64,000 bases of DNA, from NCBI RefSeq assembly GCF_020005365.1, contig NZ_JACNML010000004.1, positions 124,001-188,000 on the forward strand, read 5' to 3'. This DNA is from Kangiella shandongensis. GTDB taxonomy: Bacteria > Pseudomonadota > Gammaproteobacteria > Enterobacterales > Kangiellaceae. The translations under genes and the position numbers were made by a program. This document shows, piece by piece, positions 3,095 through 15,020 of this stretch. Position 1 is the stretch's first letter. Every line of letters starts with the position of its first letter. The notes under the pieces were generated by a model, which did not search any database, was not told the DNA's origin, and saw only the letters and a program-made list of their open reading frames with translations.

Positions 3095-3643
3095 GTGAAG
3101 GAAACAGTGGATACTGGACGACTATTATTGCGTCCATTGGAAAAGTCTGACTTTGAGGATTACTGTGAGTACGCGATGGATCCGGAGGTCATGAAATATA
3201 TCATGCCGGTTTCAACTAAGAAGGAAGCCCATGATATTTTCTTAAAACATTTTGGAGAATGGACCGGTGAAGAAGGGCGCTGGATGGGCGCTGCGGTGGT
3301 GCTGAAATCTGAAGATAAACTGATCGGTGATATCGGATTTCGCTATACCAGCAAATATCATGAGCAAATTGAAATCGGTTATAAGTTCAATCGTAACTAT
3401 CAAGGCAAAGGGTATGGAACTGAAGCAATTAAAGCAATGTTAGAGCTTATTGTTCGGGATTGGCCGTGTCATAAAATAGTTGCTTACTGCGAACCAAGGA
3501 ATGTAGCATCATGGAAACTGATGGAACATTTCGGCATGGTGCGTGAAGGTTATTTCAAAGAGCACTTTAAGTTTGACGGTCGCTGGCAGGACGAAGTGGC
3601 TTATGGTTGTTTGGTAAAAAGTATAAAGTTGGGCGGCACATAA
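3095..3643 (+). CDS. GNAT family N-acetyltransferase (RimJ/RimL type)
   Basis: A 182-residue GNAT acetyltransferase. The N-terminus TGRLLLRPLEKSDF is the usual opening of the RimJ/RimL-like Acetyltransf_3 group, and RNYQGKGYGTEAIKAML carries the acetyl-CoA binding Q/RxxGxG/A loop. Members acetylate N-terminal or side-chain amines of proteins or small molecules; the substrate cannot be told from sequence. A longer version could begin at GTG 3083, overlapping the stop of the helicase, but GTG 3095 is preferred because GGAGAG at 3085-3090 is a good ribosome site for it. It is probably translated together with the helicase gene. Confidence 0.8.
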   Translation: MKETVDTGRLLLRPLEKSDFEDYCEYAMDPEVMKYIMPVSTKKEAHDIFLKHFGEWTGEEGRWMGAAVVLKSEDKLIGDIGFRYTSKYHEQIEIGYKFNRNYQGKGYGTEAIKAMLELIVRDWPCHKIVAYCEPRNVASWKLMEHFGMVREGYFKEHFKFDGRWQDEVAYGCLVKSIKLGGT

Positions 3644-3650
3644 TGCGTAT

Positions 3651-3680
3651 TTGACAGCTAACTTTTTCATATGATATAAA
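3651..3680 (+). promoter_or_regulatory. Strong sigma-70-type promoter of the cyanophycin locus
   Basis: TTGACA (3651-3656, perfect consensus) is followed after 18 bases by TATAAA (3675-3680, five of six). Transcription would start near 3687. The first gene downstream is the 24-codon ORF at 3723, then a terminator and the TonB receptor. It is one of the best sigma-70 matches in the window; its activity is inferred. Confidence 0.6.
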
Positions 3681-3722
3681 ATATTTTAATCGAACTCATT
3701 AGTTAATTTTCTTGGAGGAGCC

Positions 3723-3797
3723 ATGCTAAAAAAAGCCTACAATTTAGCTGATTATAGCTTCTCTGATTACTACCTCAGCGAGTGGTTTGACGAATAA
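3723..3797 (+). CDS. 24-residue small ORF, possible leader peptide
   Basis: An ATG preceded by GGAGGAG starts a 24-codon frame ending in TAA at 3797. The peptide is acidic (five D/E against two K) and rich in aromatics: Tyr 6, 11, 16, 17, Phe 13, 22 and Trp 21. It lies between a consensus promoter (3651-3680) and a perfect terminator hairpin that begins five bases after its stop codon. A ribosome sitting at the stop codon would cover the 5' arm of that hairpin. I do not recognise the peptide. It may be a leader peptide controlling read-through into the TonB receptor operon, or a stand-alone small protein. Confidence 0.5.
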   Translation: MLKKAYNLADYSFSDYYLSEWFDE

Positions 3798-3801
3798 CCT
3801 C

Positions 3802-3827
3802 CGTTAGTTGTTCTAACTAACGTTTTT
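3802..3827 (+). terminator. Intrinsic terminator / candidate attenuator before TonB receptor
   Basis: CGTTAGTT (3802-3809) and AACTAACG (3815-3822) form a perfect 8-bp stem with a 5-base loop, followed by TTTTT. Only 44 bases separate it from the receptor start, and no second promoter is visible there, so the downstream operon probably depends on read-through. TTAGTT at 3699-3704 in the leader could pair with AACTAA of the 3' arm and act as an antiterminator (inference). Confidence 0.7.
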
Positions 3828-3871
3828 CTAATTATTTCAAATAATAGTGTCCTTATGGGCAGGGGTTATGT

Positions 3872-6616
3872 ATGAGTATTCGTTTATTCAAATATTCTCT
3901 AGTGGCTTTATCTGTCACGTTATTACTACATCCAGATACAGCTGCAGCAGCAGAACAGGATGAAGCCGAGTCAGTGGTTGTTACGGGGAGTCGAATTAAA
4001 AGTATTGATCTTGAGGGCGAGTCGCCCGTACAGGTTATTGATGAGGAAGATATCGAATCTTCCACGGCAACCAACTTGGACTCACTACTAAAAGAACTCG
4101 CAGTAACGCATGGCGGCGATGGTTCATTTAGTACTCACAATTCAGGAGCTTTACAGGCTGACTCTCCCGCCGGTAGCTCGGCAGTTTCATTGAGAGGGCT
4201 TGGAACCGCATCCACTTTGGTGTTGATTAATGGTCGTAGAGTAGCAGCCAGTTCCTTCGCTTATAATTCGCAAAATTTTGTCGATATTAATTCTATTCCA
4301 TTAGCTGCCATCAAGCGAGTTGAAGTACTGCCAACTGGGGCGTCGGCTATTTATGGTGCTGATGCTGTTGCTGGTGTTGTTAACCTTATTTTGAAAAAAG
4401 GGGATGGCGGCTCGCAAATTTCTGTCAGTTATGGGGATTCGGACACTTCTTCCGATGAGTCTAAAACTAATTTAAATGGTGTTTGGTCTGCAGACTTTGA
4501 TAGCTCTGATATCACAGCATTTTTTGATATTTATCGTAAGAATGCGCTATACGACAAAGACCGACAGCAGACGCGATATAGTTTTGATCGAAGTCAGCAA
4601 GGTATCTGGCCAAGTTTTAATACGCAGTATTTTGATGACATTGATTATGTGGAATCCTCTTGCCCGGATGATATCCGATATGATGGTCGTCCAGGTTTCC
4701 CTAACTCTTCATTCGGGGAGTATTGCGAATACAATCAGAATCAGTACTTACCAACCTATCCTGAATTTGAATCTGAATCGATTGGTTTTGCTTCTAACCA
4801 TTACTTTGATGATGGTTTGACTTGGTTTAATGAGGTATTTGTCTCTCGAACGGAGGGACGCGCTAATTCCACTGGAGCACCTTTCAGTGGTGTGGCGGTG
4901 TCTTTTGATCATCCCAATATGCCGTCAAATTTACGCCAGCGCTATGAAGATTTATGGAATGATTTAGGTGTTCCGCCAGAAAGTGAATTGTTGATGTGGG
5001 GGCGATTCCGCCAGCCAAGAACGATCACTAATGAATCTACAAGTTACCGTTTTGTATCCGGCTTGGAAGGAGTGACTGAGAAAGGCTGGGAGTGGGACCT
5101 TGCTGCAAATATTTCTGTCAGTGAGTCCGAACAGTTGGCAGAAAAGGGTATTATCAATGTTGCTAAGTTTGAAGCTGCTTTGTTCGGGGAGCTATGTGCA
5201 GATGGTACTGTTGGTTGTACCCCAGCTAATAATGGATTGTACTTTAATCCGTTTGGTGGGCAGTCAGGAAATCAGCAAGCTTTGGATATCATTAATGAAC
5301 GAGTGCCAAGAAATGGTGAGTCGAAACTGTATGCAGTGGACTTTAATGTTACCGGTGACTGGTTTGAGTTGGGTAGTGATTGGGTTAAAGCTGCATATGG
5401 TTTAGAAGTACGCCGTGAGGAAATTTCTGATAAGCCAGCTGCGTTAGCAACTGCTGATCCGAATAATAACTTTGAAGTTCCTGTTTATGGATTTGGCTCT
5501 ACGGCAGCATCTGCTTCTCGTGATATATGGGCCGCTTATGCCGAGTATCGTGTTCCACTGACTGATACATTTAATCTGCAATTGGCTGGTCGATATGATC
5601 ACTACTCAGATTTTGGTGGGGACTTTAATCCAAAAGTTGGCTTTACCTATCGTCCATCTGATAGCTTCTTGATGAGAGGCTCTTGGAATACTTCCTTCCG
5701 GGCTCCTTCTTTAGCACAGGTTGGAGCAGGCACTACCCTTGGCTCTGATTCATTGGAGTGTACGGATGAGTTTTTAAATAACTTTTGTGGTGGTTTTGGT
5801 GGCCGAGATGGTTTCTTAACCGAAGTTTATGGCAATGAAAACCTTAAAGCGGAAGAGTCAACATCCTATGACGTGGGTTTTGTTTTTAGCTTTGCCAATG
5901 ATAGTACATTAGCTATCGATTATTGGTCATTTGAATATGACAACATTGTGGGTATTGACTCTGAGCGCTTGTTCCGTCTTGCCTTAGAGGGACAGATCCC
6001 AGTGGTGGCGACCGATGGACTAGATTCTGCTAATCAGCAAATTGGTATTGAAACTCGGAATGGCAATATCGGAGACCCCATTGATGAAGTTCACTTACAA
6101 CTTGAAAACTTAGGGGTGCAAGAAGTTGAAGGGATCGATTTAGCCTACACACAATACTTCGATATTGACTCAGGAGAGTTGAGCTTATTGCTAGATGGGA
6201 CTTACCTGCTTGATTTTAATAAACAGTTGTCCAAGCAATCTGAAGTTGAGTCACTTGAGGGAACGTTTCGTTATCCTGAGCTAATTCTGCGAGCGAGACT
6301 ACGTTGGTCAGGTGATGATTGGTTCGGTTCAGTAACCGGTAACTATATTTCAAGTTATGATGATGATCTCGAAGGTTATGATGAGCAGCAACTGACTGAT
6401 TTTGGTATATCAAGAGAAAGGGAAGTACCTTCGTGGGTTAAGTGGAACTTTACGGTTGGCTACGATCTTACTGGAAATTCATACCTAAGATTAGGTATCG
6501 ATAATTTGTTGGATGAGGAAGCCCCTGTTGCTTATGGCACAAGCGCCAATGTCGATCATTTTAATCATGATACTTATGGACGCTTCTATCAACTGAAGTA
6601 TACCTATAACTTTTAG
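3872..6616 (+). CDS. TonB-dependent outer-membrane receptor
   Basis: A 914-residue TonB-dependent receptor. The N-terminal signal peptide ends around AAAA at residues 24-28. The plug follows (VVVTGSRI, SPVQVIDEEDIE, VSLRGLG, LVLINGRRV, RVEVLPTGASAIYGADAVAGVVNLI), then a long beta-barrel ending in aromatic Phe (LKYTYNF), the outer-membrane assembly signal. Such proteins import large or scarce ligands with energy from TonB-ExbBD. The gene directly precedes a YfcC transporter, an isoaspartyl dipeptidase homologue and a cyanophycinase, so the likely ligand is cyanophycin-derived beta-Asp-Arg dipeptide or a related peptide (inference from context). Expression probably depends on read-through of the terminator at 3802-3827. 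Confidence 0.9.
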   Translation: MSIRLFKYSLVALSVTLLLHPDTAAAAEQDEAESVVVTGSRIKSIDLEGESPVQVIDEEDIESSTATNLDSLLKELAVTHGGDGSFSTHNSGALQADSPAGSSAVSLRGLGTASTLVLINGRRVAASSFAYNSQNFVDINSIPLAAIKRVEVLPTGASAIYGADAVAGVVNLILKKGDGGSQISVSYGDSDTSSDESKTNLNGVWSADFDSSDITAFFDIYRKNALYDKDRQQTRYSFDRSQQGIWPSFNTQYFDDIDYVESSCPDDIRYDGRPGFPNSSFGEYCEYNQNQYLPTYPEFESESIGFASNHYFDDGLTWFNEVFVSRTEGRANSTGAPFSGVAVSFDHPNMPSNLRQRYEDLWNDLGVPPESELLMWGRFRQPRTITNESTSYRFVSGLEGVTEKGWEWDLAANISVSESEQLAEKGIINVAKFEAALFGELCADGTVGCTPANNGLYFNPFGGQSGNQQALDIINERVPRNGESKLYAVDFNVTGDWFELGSDWVKAAYGLEVRREEISDKPAALATADPNNNFEVPVYGFGSTAASASRDIWAAYAEYRVPLTDTFNLQLAGRYDHYSDFGGDFNPKVGFTYRPSDSFLMRGSWNTSFRAPSLAQVGAGTTLGSDSLECTDEFLNNFCGGFGGRDGFLTEVYGNENLKAEESTSYDVGFVFSFANDSTLAIDYWSFEYDNIVGIDSERLFRLALEGQIPVVATDGLDSANQQIGIETRNGNIGDPIDEVHLQLENLGVQEVEGIDLAYTQYFDIDSGELSLLLDGTYLLDFNKQLSKQSEVESLEGTFRYPELILRARLRWSGDDWFGSVTGNYISSYDDDLEGYDEQQLTDFGISREREVPSWVKWNFTVGYDLTGNSYLRLGIDNLLDEEAPVAYGTSANVDHFNHDTYGRFYQLKYTYNF

Positions 6617-6653: not shown

Positions 6654-8117
6654 ATGTCAAATCAAAAAACTATAAGCGTGCCGAATACCTTGATTTTGGT
6701 ATTGGGTGTTGCAGCTTTTGCCTGGTTGTTAACTTATTTTATTCCCTTGGGCAGTTTCGAATTAAATACTGTTTCCTACCAGCAAGGCGACACAATTGTT
6801 GAAAAACAGGTACTGAAACCTGGCTCATTTGAATATAACCGCGATCCATCAGGAGAGCCGCAGACGCAAGGAGCGGTTTTATTTTCATCAGGTGATAGGC
6901 CTGGCTTCCTAAATATTGCTTATGAAGGAATCACTACCGGAGATCGCTCAAGTGGTGCGGTGGCTATTATTGCTTTTTTGCTCATCATTGGTGGGGCATT
7001 CGGTATTATCATGGCGCCTAGCACCATCAATCGTGCATTACTAAAGTTATTATCTCGTAACAACCAAAAAGAGTTATTGATCATTCCTTTACTGTGTTTC
7101 GTTTTCTCGTTGGGTGGAGCTGTTTTTGGAATGGGGGAAGAAGCCATCGCATTTGCAATGATTCTTATGCCGGTTATGAAAAGTAAAGGCTATAACGGTA
7201 TGGTTGTGGTGCTGTGTACTTATGTGGCGACCCAAGTTGGTTTTGCAACTTCTTGGATGAACCCTTTTAATATAGGAATTGCTCAGGGCTTGGCACAGGT
7301 TCCGCTACTCAGTGGGGCCGGATTTCGATTTATCATGTGGGCTATTTTTACACTGGTGCTAATGGTGTTTGCCACTGTTTATAGCAAGTCGAGTCGCGTA
7401 CTTGTTGATGATATTGATTTAATCAAGGTCGATGGACAGAAACTGGGACTTGGCGATTGGCTGGTTTTAATTAATCTATTGCTTGGAATGGTTTGGGTTA
7501 TTTGGGGAGTATCGGTTCACGGCTATTATATTGCTGAAATTGCGACTCAATTTTTCGCCATAGGGTTAAGCTCCGCCATTATTACTCTTATCTTTAAGTT
7601 GGATGGACTGAACGCAAACGATCTTGCGACTCAATTTACTCAGGGTGCAAAAGAGCTTTTGCCTGCTGCACTTATCGTTGGCTTTGCGCAAGGTGTCTTA
7701 TTAATTCTTGGCGGTGCCGATCCAGCAAAAGATTCAACCTTGAATACAATTCTCAATAGTGCTGCCAACAGCATGGCTGGCTTCTCCAGTTATAGTTCCG
7801 GAATCTTGATGTATTGGTTTCAGTCTATTTTTAATGTCTTCGTTACCTCTGGCTCTGGCCAAGCAGCCTTAACGATGCCATTAATGGCTCCTATTTCTGA
7901 CTTAGTTGGCATTTCAAGGCAAACTGCAGTGCTGGTATTCCAATTAGGCGACGGTCTAACCAATATTATAGTACCTACTTCCGCTTCTTTAATGGGGACT
8001 TTAGGTGTTGCAAAAGTGGACTGGCTAGAGTGGGTAAAAGTCATCTGGAAATTTTTATTAATTATGATGCTGATAGCGATGACATTTATTGTTGTGGCTG
8101 TAGCGATAGGTTTTTAA
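6654..8117 (+). CDS. YfcC-family inner-membrane transporter
   Basis: A 487-residue multi-spanning protein with about 11-13 hydrophobic segments, beginning NTLILVLGVAAFAWLLTYFIPLG, a stretch typical of the YfcC/C4-dicarboxylate anaerobic carrier (DcuC-like) group. Other family-like parts are GGAFGIIM, the FGMGEEAIAF loop and the SGSGQAALTMPLMAPISDL segment near the C-terminus. YfcC proteins are annotated as basic-amino-acid or peptide carriers; the substrate is rarely proven. Placed between a TonB receptor and a beta-aspartyl peptidase homologue, it probably moves the Asp-Arg dipeptide (or Arg/Asp) across the inner membrane. Its stop is one base before the next start, so the operon is tightly coupled. 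Confidence 0.82.
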   Translation: MSNQKTISVPNTLILVLGVAAFAWLLTYFIPLGSFELNTVSYQQGDTIVEKQVLKPGSFEYNRDPSGEPQTQGAVLFSSGDRPGFLNIAYEGITTGDRSSGAVAIIAFLLIIGGAFGIIMAPSTINRALLKLLSRNNQKELLIIPLLCFVFSLGGAVFGMGEEAIAFAMILMPVMKSKGYNGMVVVLCTYVATQVGFATSWMNPFNIGIAQGLAQVPLLSGAGFRFIMWAIFTLVLMVFATVYSKSSRVLVDDIDLIKVDGQKLGLGDWLVLINLLLGMVWVIWGVSVHGYYIAEIATQFFAIGLSSAIITLIFKLDGLNANDLATQFTQGAKELLPAALIVGFAQGVLLILGGADPAKDSTLNTILNSAANSMAGFSSYSSGILMYWFQSIFNVFVTSGSGQAALTMPLMAPISDLVGISRQTAVLVFQLGDGLTNIIVPTSASLMGTLGVAKVDWLEWVKVIWKFLLIMMLIAMTFIVVAVAIGF

Positions 8118-8118
8118 C

Positions 8119-9300
8119 ATGCTGAAACTCATTAAGAACGCAACTGTTCACGATCCGAAATATATTGGCGTCAAAGATATTATGATAGATTCACAGTCGA
8201 TTATTGCCATCGAAGACAATATTGAATGTGATCATTCTTTCGTTGAAATGATTGATGCAACAGGCCAATTAGCGGTACCGGGCTTTATTGATAGTCTGGT
8301 TCACATAACAGGAGGCGGGGGTGAAGGTGGCTTTACTACTAGGACGCCTGAAGTGAATCTAACCGATTTAACCAAAGCTGGAATTACAACTTTGGTGGGT
8401 GCTTTAGGGACGGACGCAGTTTCAAGAACACTCACCAATCTGATTGCGAAAACAAAAGAGCTGAATGAACTGGGTTTGAGTTGTTACTTTTATTCAGGGT
8501 CGTATCATTTACCAGCGACCACTCTTACTGCCAGTGTCCAGTCGGATATCATGCTAATTGAGGAATGTATCGGTGTCGGTGAAGTGGCGATTGCCGATCA
8601 TAGAGGCTCACAGTTGAGCTATAACGAATTAGCCAGGTTAGCGTCTGACAGTCGTGTCGGTGGTATGTTGTCAGGGAAAAGTGGCATCGTTAGTATTCAT
8701 GTTGGGGATGGCCCCGAGAACCTGAAAGTGATTAATGAAGTTGTCGACAATACCGACATTCCGATCACACAATTTTTACCCACTCACATGAACCGCAATC
8801 AAGCACTGTTTGATGCTGGTATAAACTATGTTGCCCGGGGGGGGTATATTGACCTGACCACAAGCACTACACCTGAGTTTTTAAAAGAAGGCGAGTTAAA
8901 GTGTAGCAGGGCTTTAAAACAGGTTATCGATAAGGAAGCTAATCTAAGTCATATTACTTTTAGTTCAGATGGCCACGCCAGCTTGCCAAGTTTTGATGAA
9001 TCCGGAAACTTGGCTCAACTAGAAATTGGCAAAGAAACCTCTTTATTTGATGAGATTAGAGATGCCGTTCTGATAGAAGACATAGAACTTGAAAAAGCAT
9101 TAGCGGTTATAACGAGTAATCCTGCTGACATTTTGAAAATGAAAAGAAAAGGCCGTCTTAAAGTTGGCTATGATGCGGATATAGTCTTGCTGGATAAAGA
9201 GCGGCTTGTAATTGAAAGTGTTTTTAGCCGAGGTAGAACTATGATCCTTTCAGGCGAAGTGAAGTGTCAGGGTAAGTTTGAACAAGGAGTTACTCGATGA
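8119..9300 (+). CDS. iadA: Isoaspartyl dipeptidase (IadA) homologue with altered metal ligands
   Basis: A 393-residue M38 amidohydrolase close in length and sequence to E. coli IadA, which cleaves beta-aspartyl dipeptides in the cytoplasm. Conserved parts include GGGGEGG (substrate Glu), SGSYHLP (Tyr), His194, His223 in THMNRN, and Asp284 in SSDGH. Two of the six usual metal-site positions differ: the first His of HxH is Leu (L60-V-H62), and the carboxylated Lys position is Glu (E155 in GEVAIADHR). Glu at the Lys site is, as I recall, a recurring variant; loss of the first His is unusual. It sits 1 bp after the transporter gene and overlaps the cyanophycinase by 4 bp, so the substrate is probably beta-Asp-Arg. 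It may be mononuclear, changed in activity, or weakened. Confidence 0.85.
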   Translation: MLKLIKNATVHDPKYIGVKDIMIDSQSIIAIEDNIECDHSFVEMIDATGQLAVPGFIDSLVHITGGGGEGGFTTRTPEVNLTDLTKAGITTLVGALGTDAVSRTLTNLIAKTKELNELGLSCYFYSGSYHLPATTLTASVQSDIMLIEECIGVGEVAIADHRGSQLSYNELARLASDSRVGGMLSGKSGIVSIHVGDGPENLKVINEVVDNTDIPITQFLPTHMNRNQALFDAGINYVARGGYIDLTTSTTPEFLKEGELKCSRALKQVIDKEANLSHITFSSDGHASLPSFDESGNLAQLEIGKETSLFDEIRDAVLIEDIELEKALAVITSNPADILKMKRKGRLKVGYDADIVLLDKERLVIESVFSRGRTMILSGEVKCQGKFEQGVTR

Positions 9301-11009
9301 CCCGTATACTCCTGCTAATACTGATGTCCTTTAGTTTGCAAGCAGTTTCTAAGGATAAAAGTCAAGGTGTCGATAAAAACGGTATTACCCAACTCAGCCC
9401 ACAGATGGTACTGATTGGAGGCGGCCTTAAGGTTTGTAGTAGTTATGTAAAGACTCATTGCTTACAACCATTGAGAAAATCTGAGTTAATGAAGCCTTTG
9501 CTTAGAACTACTAAAGAACTGGTTGTCACAAGCGACACGATAAAAGAGGTGGGTAAGGATAGTTACCATCTTTTCCCAGACAAAAGCATGCTTGATGAAC
9601 TGTCCAGTCATCTGGATAGGTATCTAAAGAAATATGGCAATGAGCCAGTTGATATTGATACCTTTTATTCAAGAATGAACCGATTGAAAGAGGGTGGTCA
9701 AAAAGGCTTCGAGAAGTTTTTGTCGGAGCTTAATCAAAGACAAAGCCAATTTATAGAACAAAGTTTACAGGCACCATTGGAGTCAAAGGAGGGAAAGGCA
9801 TTAACAGAAAAAGCTTATTTAAATTATTCCGATGAGGATACTGTTAGGATTATTCAAAAAGCTCAACATTTGAGCCAAGTTATTGCCGAAGCCAAGGGGA
9901 AGGACAAGGCAAGAGTTTTAATTTTAACTTCATCCTCTTCTGATCTATTTGATGCAGTGAGCTTCTACCTTCATCTATTTGCCAATGAGCAGATTGAAAC
10001 GGCCTGGCTACCATTAGAGCCTGCATTTCTTGAGGTTAGCCTTTCGGAAAATTTGCGTTGTGAAGATATCGAGGTGATAAGAGCGCAGAGTCAGCAGCAA
10101 TATTTTCGCAGTAGAGTCTATCCATTATTGAGTCAATACCAGCATGTCTTTTGTCATAAGCCGGAGTTACTCAATGAGCTTATCCTTTCAGCCGATGCTT
10201 TATTTATTAATGGTGGGGATCAAACCTTAACCTTGCAGTCGTTTGTTAAAGATGCAACGAACTTACGTGAGTTCTCACCTTATTATGGGCTGATCAAAAA
10301 GCAGTTCGAAGCTGGAAAGTTGCTGATTATGGGAACCAGCGCCGGTACTGCAGTACAAAGTGGAAATCATGAAGACGGTAATAAACTGCCAATGATCTCT
10401 AATGGCGGGTCACTACGAGGAGGCTACGAGGGGGCTATGCCAGTGCTCGTTCCTCCAGCTGCTAGCTGCACGGAAGAATCTTCTTGCCCCAAAGGTTTGC
10501 AAGCCAATAGCTTAACTTACAATCCGAGGGGCGGCTTAGGCCTGGTCAACCTTGGTGTTTTTGATACGCATTTTTCAGAGCGTGAGCGCCTGGTTAGATT
10601 GTCGAGGTTGCTATTGGATACCCAGAGTTCTTTGGGTATTGGCATTGATGAAAACACCGCATTACATCTCACTAAGCGTAATGGTAAATACCAATATTTG
10701 GTTTATGGGCAAGGAGCGACTTGGTTTGTTGATAGTTCTCAGGCCAAATTGCTCAAGTCGCCAAATAAAATCACTATGGAAAATGTGTCTATAGCAGTCA
10801 TGCGACAAAAGGATAAGAACCTCTGGAGTGAGCGCGAAATGATTCAAGTGGCATTCAAAGGAATTGAGTGTGAAACAAAAATAAAGCTCGGTTGTCAGCT
10901 AGTCACGGGTGATGAAAACTACCCCTTAGTGTTGCAGGTCACATCAAGTGACTATACATTAACTGATGATGTCATATCAGTTAATCTGACAATTGGGCTT
11001 TCTCATTGA
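9297..11009 (+). CDS. Secreted cyanophycinase (peptidase S51)
   Basis: A 570-residue exported serine peptidase of the cyanophycinase family, which cuts the Asp-Arg polymer cyanophycin into beta-Asp-Arg dipeptides. The start shows a short signal peptide (ILLLILMSFSLQAVS). Family features are VLIGGGLKVCSSYV near residue 40, FINGGDQTLTLQSF, the nucleophile motif MGTSAGTAVQSG, FDTHFSERERL with the catalytic-type His, and LGIGIDENTAL. It is far longer than the roughly 270-residue cytoplasmic CphB. The extra length is an N-terminal helical insert (about residues 60-210) and a C-terminal domain, as in extracellular forms. Its ATG overlaps the iadA stop (ATGA). A secreted polymer cutter, a TonB receptor, a transporter and a dipeptidase together form a coherent scavenging route. 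Confidence 0.85.
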   Translation: MTRILLLILMSFSLQAVSKDKSQGVDKNGITQLSPQMVLIGGGLKVCSSYVKTHCLQPLRKSELMKPLLRTTKELVVTSDTIKEVGKDSYHLFPDKSMLDELSSHLDRYLKKYGNEPVDIDTFYSRMNRLKEGGQKGFEKFLSELNQRQSQFIEQSLQAPLESKEGKALTEKAYLNYSDEDTVRIIQKAQHLSQVIAEAKGKDKARVLILTSSSSDLFDAVSFYLHLFANEQIETAWLPLEPAFLEVSLSENLRCEDIEVIRAQSQQQYFRSRVYPLLSQYQHVFCHKPELLNELILSADALFINGGDQTLTLQSFVKDATNLREFSPYYGLIKKQFEAGKLLIMGTSAGTAVQSGNHEDGNKLPMISNGGSLRGGYEGAMPVLVPPAASCTEESSCPKGLQANSLTYNPRGGLGLVNLGVFDTHFSERERLVRLSRLLLDTQSSLGIGIDENTALHLTKRNGKYQYLVYGQGATWFVDSSQAKLLKSPNKITMENVSIAVMRQKDKNLWSEREMIQVAFKGIECETKIKLGCQLVTGDENYPLVLQVTSSDYTLTDDVISVNLTIGLSH

Positions 11010-13921: not shown

Positions 13922-15020
13922 ATGTTAGAAGTTAATCCAATAAGAGAACATCTAAAAGATATGTCTGAGCGTGTTGAGACGCTTAGGGGGTATCTTTGAC
14001 TTCGACGCCAAGAAAGAGCGTTTAGAAGAAGTTACTAAAGAGCTTGAACAGCCTGACGTGTGGAACGATCAGGAGCGTGCACAGGCTTTAGGTCAGGAAA
14101 GAGCGAAACTGGAAGCTGTCGTCGAGACGATTATTGAGCTAGAGCAAGGTGTTGCCGATAACTCGGATCTGCTGGAGATTGCGGTCGAGGAAGAGGATGG
14201 TGATAGTGTTGAGATGATCGAGTCCGAGCTGACCGGTCTCGAAAAGATGCTGGCAAAACTGGAATTCCGCCGCATGTTCTCCGGTGATATGGATGACAGT
14301 AATGCCTATCTCGATATTCAGGCAGGTTCAGGTGGAACCGAGGCGCAGGACTGGGCGAGCATGTTATTGCGTATGTATTTACGCTGGGCTGAGAGTCGTG
14401 GTTTCAAGGTCGAGGTCACTGAAGAGTCCGAAGGCGATGTGGCAGGCATTAAGAGTGCGACCATTAAAGTCGATGGCGAGTATGCCTACGGTTGGCTGCG
14501 TACGGAAACTGGCGTTCACCGTCTGGTGCGAAAATCGCCTTTCGACTCAGGTAACCGTAGGCATACGTCCTTTGCTTCCGTGTTCGTTTATCCGGAAGTC
14601 GACGATGATATTGATATCGAAGTGAACCCAGCAGATTTACGCGTGGACACCTACCGTGCCAGTGGTGCCGGTGGTCAGCACGTCAACAAAACCGACTCTG
14701 CGATACGACTGACCCATATTCCAACGGGCATAGTGGTGCAGTGTCAGAATGATCGCTCGCAGCACAAAAACCGTGCCGAAGCGATGAAAATGATGAAGGC
14801 CAAGCTCTATGAGCTGGAGATGCAAAAGCAGCGCGAAGAGCAGCAAGCCCTGGAAGAATCCAAGTCGGATATCGGCTGGGGTAGTCAGATCCGCTCTTAT
14901 GTTCTCGATCAGTCGAGGATTAAAGATTTGCGTACCAGCCACGAGTCGAGTAATACGCAGGCGGTGCTGGATGGTGATCTCGATAGCTTCATAGAGGCAT
15001 CTCTAAAGGCCGGCGTATAA
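13922..15020 (+). CDS. prfB: Peptide chain release factor 2, programmed +1 frameshift
   Basis: RF2 recognises UGA and UAA stop codons and triggers peptide release. The gene starts at ATG 13922 and reads 25 codons to an in-frame TGA at 13997-13999, embedded in AGGGGGTATCTTTGAC, identical to the classic autoregulatory +1 frameshift site with its internal Shine-Dalgarno. After the shift at CTT, reading resumes at GAC 13998 and gives 365 residues, the same as E. coli RF2. The codon-recognition motif SPF (RKSPFDSG) and the catalytic GGQ ([13 protein letters not shown]) are present. A call starting at 13971 would miss the true N-terminus. It is followed by lysS, as in E. coli. Confidence 0.95.

Follow-up and report, generated by a model that had tools for sequence, protein, structure and literature searches.

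The question raised by this locus is what a short open reading frame and a hairpin, stacked behind a consensus promoter, do ahead of a TonB-dependent receptor gene in the genome of Kangiella shandongensis. The DNA analysed (the window) is a stretch of 64,000 nucleotides, and the leader and the genes behind it lie on its forward strand. The sigma-70-type promoter (3651-3680) includes TTGACA at 3651-3656, a spacer of 18 nt and TATAAA at 3675-3680, and by a freer consensus count it matches 11 of 12 positions; it is missing from the output of the promoter scan because that scan demands T as the last base of the -10 element. With this requirement the scan listed no promoter-like site on the forward strand between 3000 and 4600, as the earlier note had stated for the interval before the receptor. 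Then follow the Shine-Dalgarno (SD) sequence GGAGGA (3714-3719) and a frame of 24 codons (3723-3797; ATG at 3723, stop TAA at 3795-3797) encoding MLKKAYNLADYSFSDYYLSEWFDE, which has 7 aromatic and 5 acidic residues of 24 and whose last eight, YLSEWFDE, form together with the RF1-readable stop codon a block (3771-3797) conserved in relatives. The intrinsic-terminator-like hairpin (3802-3822; a 9-pair stem with a 3-base loop) starts five bases past the stop, after a gap of four; it is followed by the U-tract TTTTT (3823-3827) and has an energy of -8.1 kcal/mol (z -5.34), equalled by none of 200 shuffles. The promoter, the strong ribosome-binding site with its 24-codon frame, the aromatic-rich acidic peptide and the terminator had all been described in that note and are present.

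The genes behind the leader encode the TonB-dependent receptor (3872-6616; PF00593 and PF07715), a YfcC-type transporter of the DcuC family (6654-8117; NF008611, 633 bits with a cut-off of 500), isoaspartyl dipeptidase IadA (8119-9300; TIGR01975, 511 bits with a cut-off of 331), and a long S51 cyanophycinase-like protein (9297-11009; PF03575; TIGR02069 at 85.7 bits, under the cut-off of 126.6), which is probably exported, judging by eye from its N-terminus. Cyanophycin is a nitrogen reserve of cyanobacteria. Grouping of cyanophycinase, iadA and transporter genes in cyanophycin-scavenging clusters has been described (PMC10206079), and in Citromicrobium a TonB receptor adjoins cyanophycinase (PMC3400609); the term TonB does not occur in the main text of the former, and a leader peptide is not mentioned in the available text of either.

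The leader peptide has no match in Pfam, NCBIfam or PHROGs; Rfam gave two matches in 3500-4000 of the window (E 4.5 and 7.3, far under the cut-offs) and none at the gathering cut-off for 10 leader loci. Its relatives were found through the receptor. The search of 40 genomes for receptor homologues returned three close ones, L005 (Aliikangiella marina) and L006, both with 63% identity, and L007 (43%), and upstream of each a 24-codon frame stands at the same place and ends in YLSEWFDE and a stop; comparison of upstream regions, which the earlier note had proposed, thus found the peptide conserved in all three. Since these closest relatives share the length and the last eight residues, the window frame is judged to be real beyond chance. 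The more distant homologues L008-L016 (32-36% identity) have no such frame in 520 nt upstream, and a motif scan of L001-L033 gave solely L001 and L004-L007.

Peptide search with the four leaders in 295 genomes of the order gave 25 accepted fetched loci (E 7e-12 to 0.034; one of them, L040, was read from flanking sequence), while the weaker matches, inspected in part, included two variant leaders and some chance matches. The variants DYHLSEWFDE and DYHLSEWFDL precede further cyanophycinase-like copies in genomes G266 and G089. In the window genus 2 of 20 genomes had any match and the leader was accepted solely in the window genome. No leaders beyond the order came from 350 genomes sampled across the class. 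A number of candidates were set aside: L054, L055, L057, L058 and L063-L065 were judged chance matches, the match in G002 and the second one in the window genome look like chance, and three matches of an HMM search in 369 genomes lie inside long frames and were taken as chance.

The DNA pattern of the C-terminus with a TAA or TAG stop was found in at least 119 stretches of named records, which with the window and L005-L007 makes at least 124 sites, at least 123 of them credible and at least 120 distinct (L005/L110, L007/L158 and L117/L142 are duplicates). The excluded site, L143 from Neomarinimicrobiota, has YFSEWFNE in an 11-codon frame lacking a start codon. Halomonas, Microbulbifer, Saccharospirillum and Wenzhouxiangella are among the genera represented in the matches listed. 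According to these data the 24-codon frame belongs to a large and apparently undescribed family of leader peptides, found ahead of cyanophycin-scavenging genes of many bacteria.

Among the matches listed, the 123 credible sites end in YLSEWFDE (75), YLSEWFNE (29) or YLSEWFNN (19), and they were thinned by similarity to 97 unique sites (below, the 97 unique listed sites) for counts of stops, folding, terminators and residues. The pattern itself fixes Y, L, E, W and F; it permits Ser, Thr, Arg, Cys or Trp at position -6 and leaves -9 free. Despite this freedom, position -6 is Ser in 97 of the 97 unique listed sites, and position -9 is aromatic or His in all of them (F 46, Y 39, H 11, W 1). The Ser codons at -6 are split between TCN (67) and AGY (30) in the same set, and therefore it is the amino acid that is kept. 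In 69 of the 97 unique listed sites ATG stands exactly 24 codons before the stop; 53 of these 69 have TTGAC within 140 nt upstream and just 19 an SD-like motif before the leader. In the listed Halomonas group the distance from the nearest in-frame ATG to the stop varies from 19 to 37 codons around an unchanged C-terminus, and outside the C-terminal block the aromatic residues are interchangeable among the unique listed sites.

The stop codon is a further constrained element. The 97 unique listed sites have TAG in 82 cases and TAA in 15, while 466 nearby genes have TAG in 79, TAA in 257 and TGA in 130 (Fisher test against the leaders 1e-37). Because the pattern had excluded UGA and also the YLSEWW forms, two further checks of the stop were made. 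The TGA form of the motif was absent from all 295 genomes, where the reversed pattern used as control gave 0 matches in the TAA/TAG scan and 1 in the TGA scan; and the 25 loci found with a query lacking the stop have TAG in 12, TAA in 13 and TGA in none, the seven YLSEWWDE loci (L047-L053) all stopping at TAA. UAG is therefore favored in the YLSEWF set and not throughout the family, but as both sets stop at UAG or UAA, RF1 could read all the stops observed. The earlier note had placed the decisive event at the stop codon, and this is supported: conservation is concentrated in the last residues, the identity of the stop and the RNA after it.

This post-stop RNA has a composition of its own. Positions +3 to +23 contain 41% C and 16% G in the 97 unique listed sites, and C exceeds G in the first 20 nt of 91 of them in comparison with 173 of 439 gene ends. 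This C-rich segment often forms a hairpin among the unique listed sites: mean folding z of +3 to +48 is -1.93 in comparison with -0.26 to -0.57 further downstream (97 listed sites). The coding end of the leader, from -45 to 0 relative to the stop, also folds somewhat better than shuffles in these 97 sites (mean z -1.00). A motif of RNA polymerase pausing after the hairpins gave no clear signal, and covariation in one group of seven hairpins was consistent with the pairing and not beyond shuffles (185 of 500).

In the window, the lowest-energy fold pairs the segment UAACCUC (3795-3801), that is the stop codon and the next four bases, with the receptor ribosome-binding site GGGGUUA (3862-3868), and the terminator hairpin is enclosed within this predicted helix. 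The lowest-energy folds of the three closest relatives pair CCUUCCUAG with CUAGGAAGG (L005), CCUAGUA with UACUAGG (L006) and GUCACC with GGUGAC (L007), so the same pairing of stop region and receptor ribosome-binding site is predicted at the same place by different letters. This shared pairing suggests an attenuation of translation no less than one of transcription. The earlier reading of the locus as an attenuator is thus partly supported: the leader ORF does look regulatory, but across the family an intrinsic terminator is not the usual device.

Statistics on the wider family, among the matches listed, were obtained for 66 loci with a clear start and SD and for 69 in the duplex-energy test. 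The longest complementary run between the post-stop segment and the SD was on average 4.59 for cognate pairs in comparison with 4.24 for permuted ones (0 of 300 permutations reached it; 66 listed loci), while two control segments gave nothing in these loci. Runs of at least 6 nt occurred in 18 of the 66 listed loci where 7.5 were expected, and thus the anti-SD lock is predicted for a minority of the family. When +3 to +14, which a stalled ribosome would block, was masked, mean predicted accessibility of the SD rose by 0.059, with a rise above 0.2 in 10 of the 66 listed loci; masking elsewhere produced no rise in the mean for the same loci. By duplex energy, a cruder measure, cognate and foreign SDs hardly differ among the listed loci (-8.09 and -7.47; below -7 in 51% and 49%). 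Individually, the predicted probability of an unpaired SD on masking rose from 0.05 to 0.31 in the window and from 0.12 to 0.41 in L005, and barely moved in L006 (0.43 to 0.47) and L007 (0.33 to 0.39). By the longest pure Watson-Crick run L005, L006 and L007 each pair best with their own SD; the window reaches a run of 5 with its own SD and at least as much with foreign ones, but by energy its own is the best partner (-10.4 in comparison with -6.3 to -7.7), and L006 by energy pairs better with the SD of L005 than with its own.

The genes behind the leaders point to one pathway. For 123 sites among the matches listed, the first recognized gene in the 460 nt downstream of the leader is most often that of a TonB receptor (88), followed by genes for a binding protein (15), YfcC (7) and a cyanophycinase-like protein (3); 10 sites have none or a cut gene. 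At least one of the cyanophycinase-like gene, IadA, YfcC and the binding protein is present in 94 of the 123 listed stretches, IadA in 40 of them, and none of the four in 29, some of which are short. The leader stands directly ahead of a cyanophycinase-like gene in L079, L153 and L180 (Saccharospirillum, Natronospirillum and Aliikangiella); the third leader of Aliikangiella marina likewise precedes such a gene. In L132 two leaders (1547-1573 and 4295-4321) flank a cyanophycinase-like gene, one preceding a TonB receptor and the other YfcC. By eye, 15 of the 29 listed sites free of dipeptide genes adjoin TetR-like and/or acyl-CoA-dehydrogenase-like genes; these leaders stand before TonB receptors (L066, L072, L074, L081, L083, L111, L120, L123, L140, L144, L147, L152, L157, L179 and L181), and several of them are of the MQRCAANPNSYYCSTYYLSEWFNN kind.

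For counting by genome, cyanophycinase-like genes were divided by open-frame length into long (385-701 aa) and classical (272-307 aa), a division of our own, in which all long ones score under the family cut-off. The leader motif with TAA or TAG was found in 27 of 295 genomes and the long gene in 24: both in 21, the leader alone in 6, the gene alone in 3 and neither in 265 (Fisher 8e-24; per genus 12, 1, 2 and 84, 1e-12; relatedness inflates both p-values). The long gene without a leader was seen in G275, G054 and G114, and as extra copies in G095 and G089. By distance, 23 of 30 leader sites lie within 1.2 kb of a long gene, the window one lies at 6.4 kb, and six have none. Classical cyanophycinase is present in all 17 sampled genomes of the window genus, while the motif is in the window genome alone, so the classical gene is not leader-linked. 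The window genome has a separate copy of it above the family cut-off (G000:C19:166850-167581, L254), and no leader was found beside it.

The six genomes with the leader alone are all Aeromonas. IadA is just behind the binding protein in five of them; the sixth, where the leader is near the contig end, gave no IadA match, and a long cyanophycinase-like gene was not found in Aeromonas, though the leader precedes an Arg-type substrate-binding protein and IadA, an arrangement that speaks for the dipeptide over the polymer. Of the binding proteins two were scanned, one from Aeromonas and one from Billgrantia; both belong to the lysine/arginine/ornithine type, the former scoring above the TIGR01096 cut-off and the latter below it. 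The link with cyanophycin dipeptide raised in the earlier note holds over much of the family, and the shared metabolite would most simply be beta-aspartyl-arginine.

A fixed C-terminus, an RF1-readable stop, regulatory RNA within the ribosome footprint and several unrelated genes of one pathway resemble together a metabolite-sensing arrest peptide. We accordingly propose that the ORF encodes a nascent peptide which acts in cis to regulate the genes for scavenging cyanophycin dipeptide. At low dipeptide the ribosome would complete the peptide and RF1 would release the chain, after which the RNA at and just past the stop would fold and capture the SD of the downstream gene; in the window, the intrinsic terminator would also form inside the anti-SD helix. 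In the presence of the dipeptide, or of arginine freed from it, the nascent chain ending in YLSEWFDE would block release, the stalled ribosome would cover the stop codon and about 12 following bases, the lock would be prevented, and the receptor, transporter and dipeptidase would be made. We regard such a ligand-dependent arrest at an RF1-readable stop, sensing beta-aspartyl-arginine and holding the anti-SD lock open, as rather probable. Its support at the sequence level is the conserved peptide with its C-terminal block, RF1-readable stops, C-rich RNA after the stop that often forms a hairpin, complementarity with the cognate SD and the gene association; from these we infer the arrest itself, RF1 as the blocked step, beta-aspartyl-arginine as the ligand and arrest as the ON state. 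Against it stand the TAA stop of the window and the share of UAG in the loci found without the stop in the query, which at 12 of 25 falls short of a majority. More tentatively, the ribosome carrying the YLSEWFDE chain might be a direct sensor of the isopeptide dipeptide and so a nascent-chain receptor for what is left of a degraded storage polymer, copied in cis ahead of several unrelated kinds of genes of a single scavenging regulon across Gammaproteobacteria, in which the readout (anti-SD, terminator or hairpin) is variable and the sensor fixed.

The same arrest could be read out in other ways. Intrinsic transcription attenuation, in which ribosome arrest would mask the 5' arm of the terminator at 3802-3822, is a possibility worth keeping for the window and a few relatives, given the clean hairpin with U5 and its low z; the window terminator is the cleanest of those scanned in the 97 unique listed sites, and a loose scan, which misses stems running into the T-tract such as that of L005, found terminator-like sites in 11 of these 97, window included, where shuffles predict 1.9. 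Yet the strict scan, which trims stems and requires the T-run directly after the trimmed stem, found 4 of the 97 listed sites where 1.5 were expected; it alone detects the weaker terminator of L005, 20 nt after the stop, and neither L006 nor L007 has one. The antiterminator suggested earlier, TTAGTT at 3699-3704, shares part of its sequence with the 5' arm and is able in principle to pair with the 3' arm, but it is not supported: it is missing from the lowest-energy fold and has no counterpart by eye in the relatives. The intrinsic terminator is accordingly a local extra, rare in the family and not its general device, and it could well operate alongside the anti-SD lock. A readout through Rho, where the C-rich, G-poor bases after the stop serve as a loading site shielded by the stalled ribosome, would explain the excess of C over G in 91 of the 97 listed sites (173 of 439 gene ends) and would recall TnaC, the leader of E. 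coli tna, which likewise has 24 residues and a rut site right after the stop (PMC8429421). We consider it unlikely: the segment is often in a hairpin, in contrast to an open rut site, the best 60-nt segment of C over G does not exceed shuffles (0.159 and 0.160; 97 listed sites), and an anti-SD segment needs the richness in C equally, with cognate complementarity above permutation.

Other alternatives concern the ligand and the nature of the peptide. Free L-arginine or ornithine instead of the dipeptide, with the mechanism otherwise the same, would fit the lysine/arginine/ornithine type of the two scanned binding proteins and the sensing of ornithine by the arrest peptide SpeFL (PMC8429421), but it seems doubtful to us, as isoaspartyl dipeptidase, which needs the dipeptide, recurs in 40 of the 123 listed stretches and in five of six Aeromonas genomes, and arginine, being always in the cell, would presumably be a poor inducer of a scavenging locus. 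That the ORF yields a free small protein or a modified-peptide precursor working in trans is very improbable; its 24 residues and conservation at the amino acid level would suit such a product, but the leader stands in cis ahead of four kinds of genes and in some genomes occurs in multiple copies with unlike N-termini, the window peptide has no Pfam, NCBIfam or PHROGs match, and by eye no modification enzyme recurs in the larger neighbor clusters, while stop usage and the constraint on the post-stop RNA would be left unexplained. Scarcely credible is a classical tRNA-charging attenuator of the trp/his type: the leader ORF does adjoin a terminator, but the peptide lacks any stretch of control codons such as those for Arg or Asp, the aromatic residues outside the C-terminal block are interchangeable, and conservation sits at the stop.

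To our knowledge few metabolite-sensing arrest peptides, TnaC and SpeFL among them, are known in bacteria; SpeFL is unlike the window leader in sequence and length. In translation attenuation of the ErmC type a ribosome held on the leader ORF exposes the downstream SD, the arrest being induced by antibiotic inside the leader. The arrest proposed here is different, as it would occur at the stop codon, which the anti-SD segment includes or abuts, and the sequestration of the SD is a prediction that varies between loci, since predicted accessibility rises in the window and L005 and hardly in L006 and L007, and runs of 6 nt or more are limited to 18 of the 66 listed loci. It also departs from a conserved intrinsic attenuator, the terminator being present in the window and, among the three closest relatives, in L005 only.

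Similarity to TnaC includes the length of 24 residues, control at the stop, regulatory RNA directly after it, and catabolic and transport genes behind (PMC8429421). The key residues of TnaC are Trp12, Asp16 and Pro24, whereas the window peptide has S12, Y16 and E24 and no shared motif; TnaC stops at UGA and blocks RF2, while SpeFL blocks RF1 (PMC8429421). In the leaders found, the stop is UAG or UAA (the window has TAA, and TGA was absent from all 295 genomes and from the 25 loci), their ligand and genes would differ from those of TnaC, and probably the readout too, as the C-rich segment located where TnaC has its rut site may have an anti-SD role instead. RF1-readable stops fit rather the RF1 termination arrest of SpeFL, whose ligand is an arginine-related small molecule (PMC8429421); however, SpeFL controls ornithine decarboxylase, which is not encoded behind the window leader (TonB receptor, YfcC, IadA and S51) and is not among the families named at the other leader loci.

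Control of a TonB receptor by an arrest peptide ahead of it is described for CruR of Bordetella, which responds to copper, and for other RAPP/RGPP uORFs, which have their motif near the C-terminus and, in almost all TonB-linked cases, a predicted signal sequence (PMC12992588). The window ORF differs by having no Pro and, by eye, no signal sequence, and the family differs by the C-terminus YLSEWF[DN][EN] in 123 of 123 sites among the matches listed, most of these letters being set by the pattern. In the available text of a Shewanella survey of cis-RNA (PMC2659441) TonB receptors are listed solely with TPP and cobalamin riboswitches, and no description of a YLSEWFDE-type leader element was found in the open-licence literature.

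The leader motif provides a sequence tag for cyanophycin scavengers. If the proposed arrest is true, it would add a widespread family of arrest peptides recognizable by a short C-terminal signature and by stops that RF1 can read, for which a ligand is predicted; some TonB receptors, YfcC transporters and binding proteins of the Arg type would then be probable carriers of cyanophycin dipeptide. Elsewhere in the window, positions 13922-15020 resemble by eye the RF2 gene prfB with its usual CTTTGA programmed frameshift site (13994-13999), which is ordinary.
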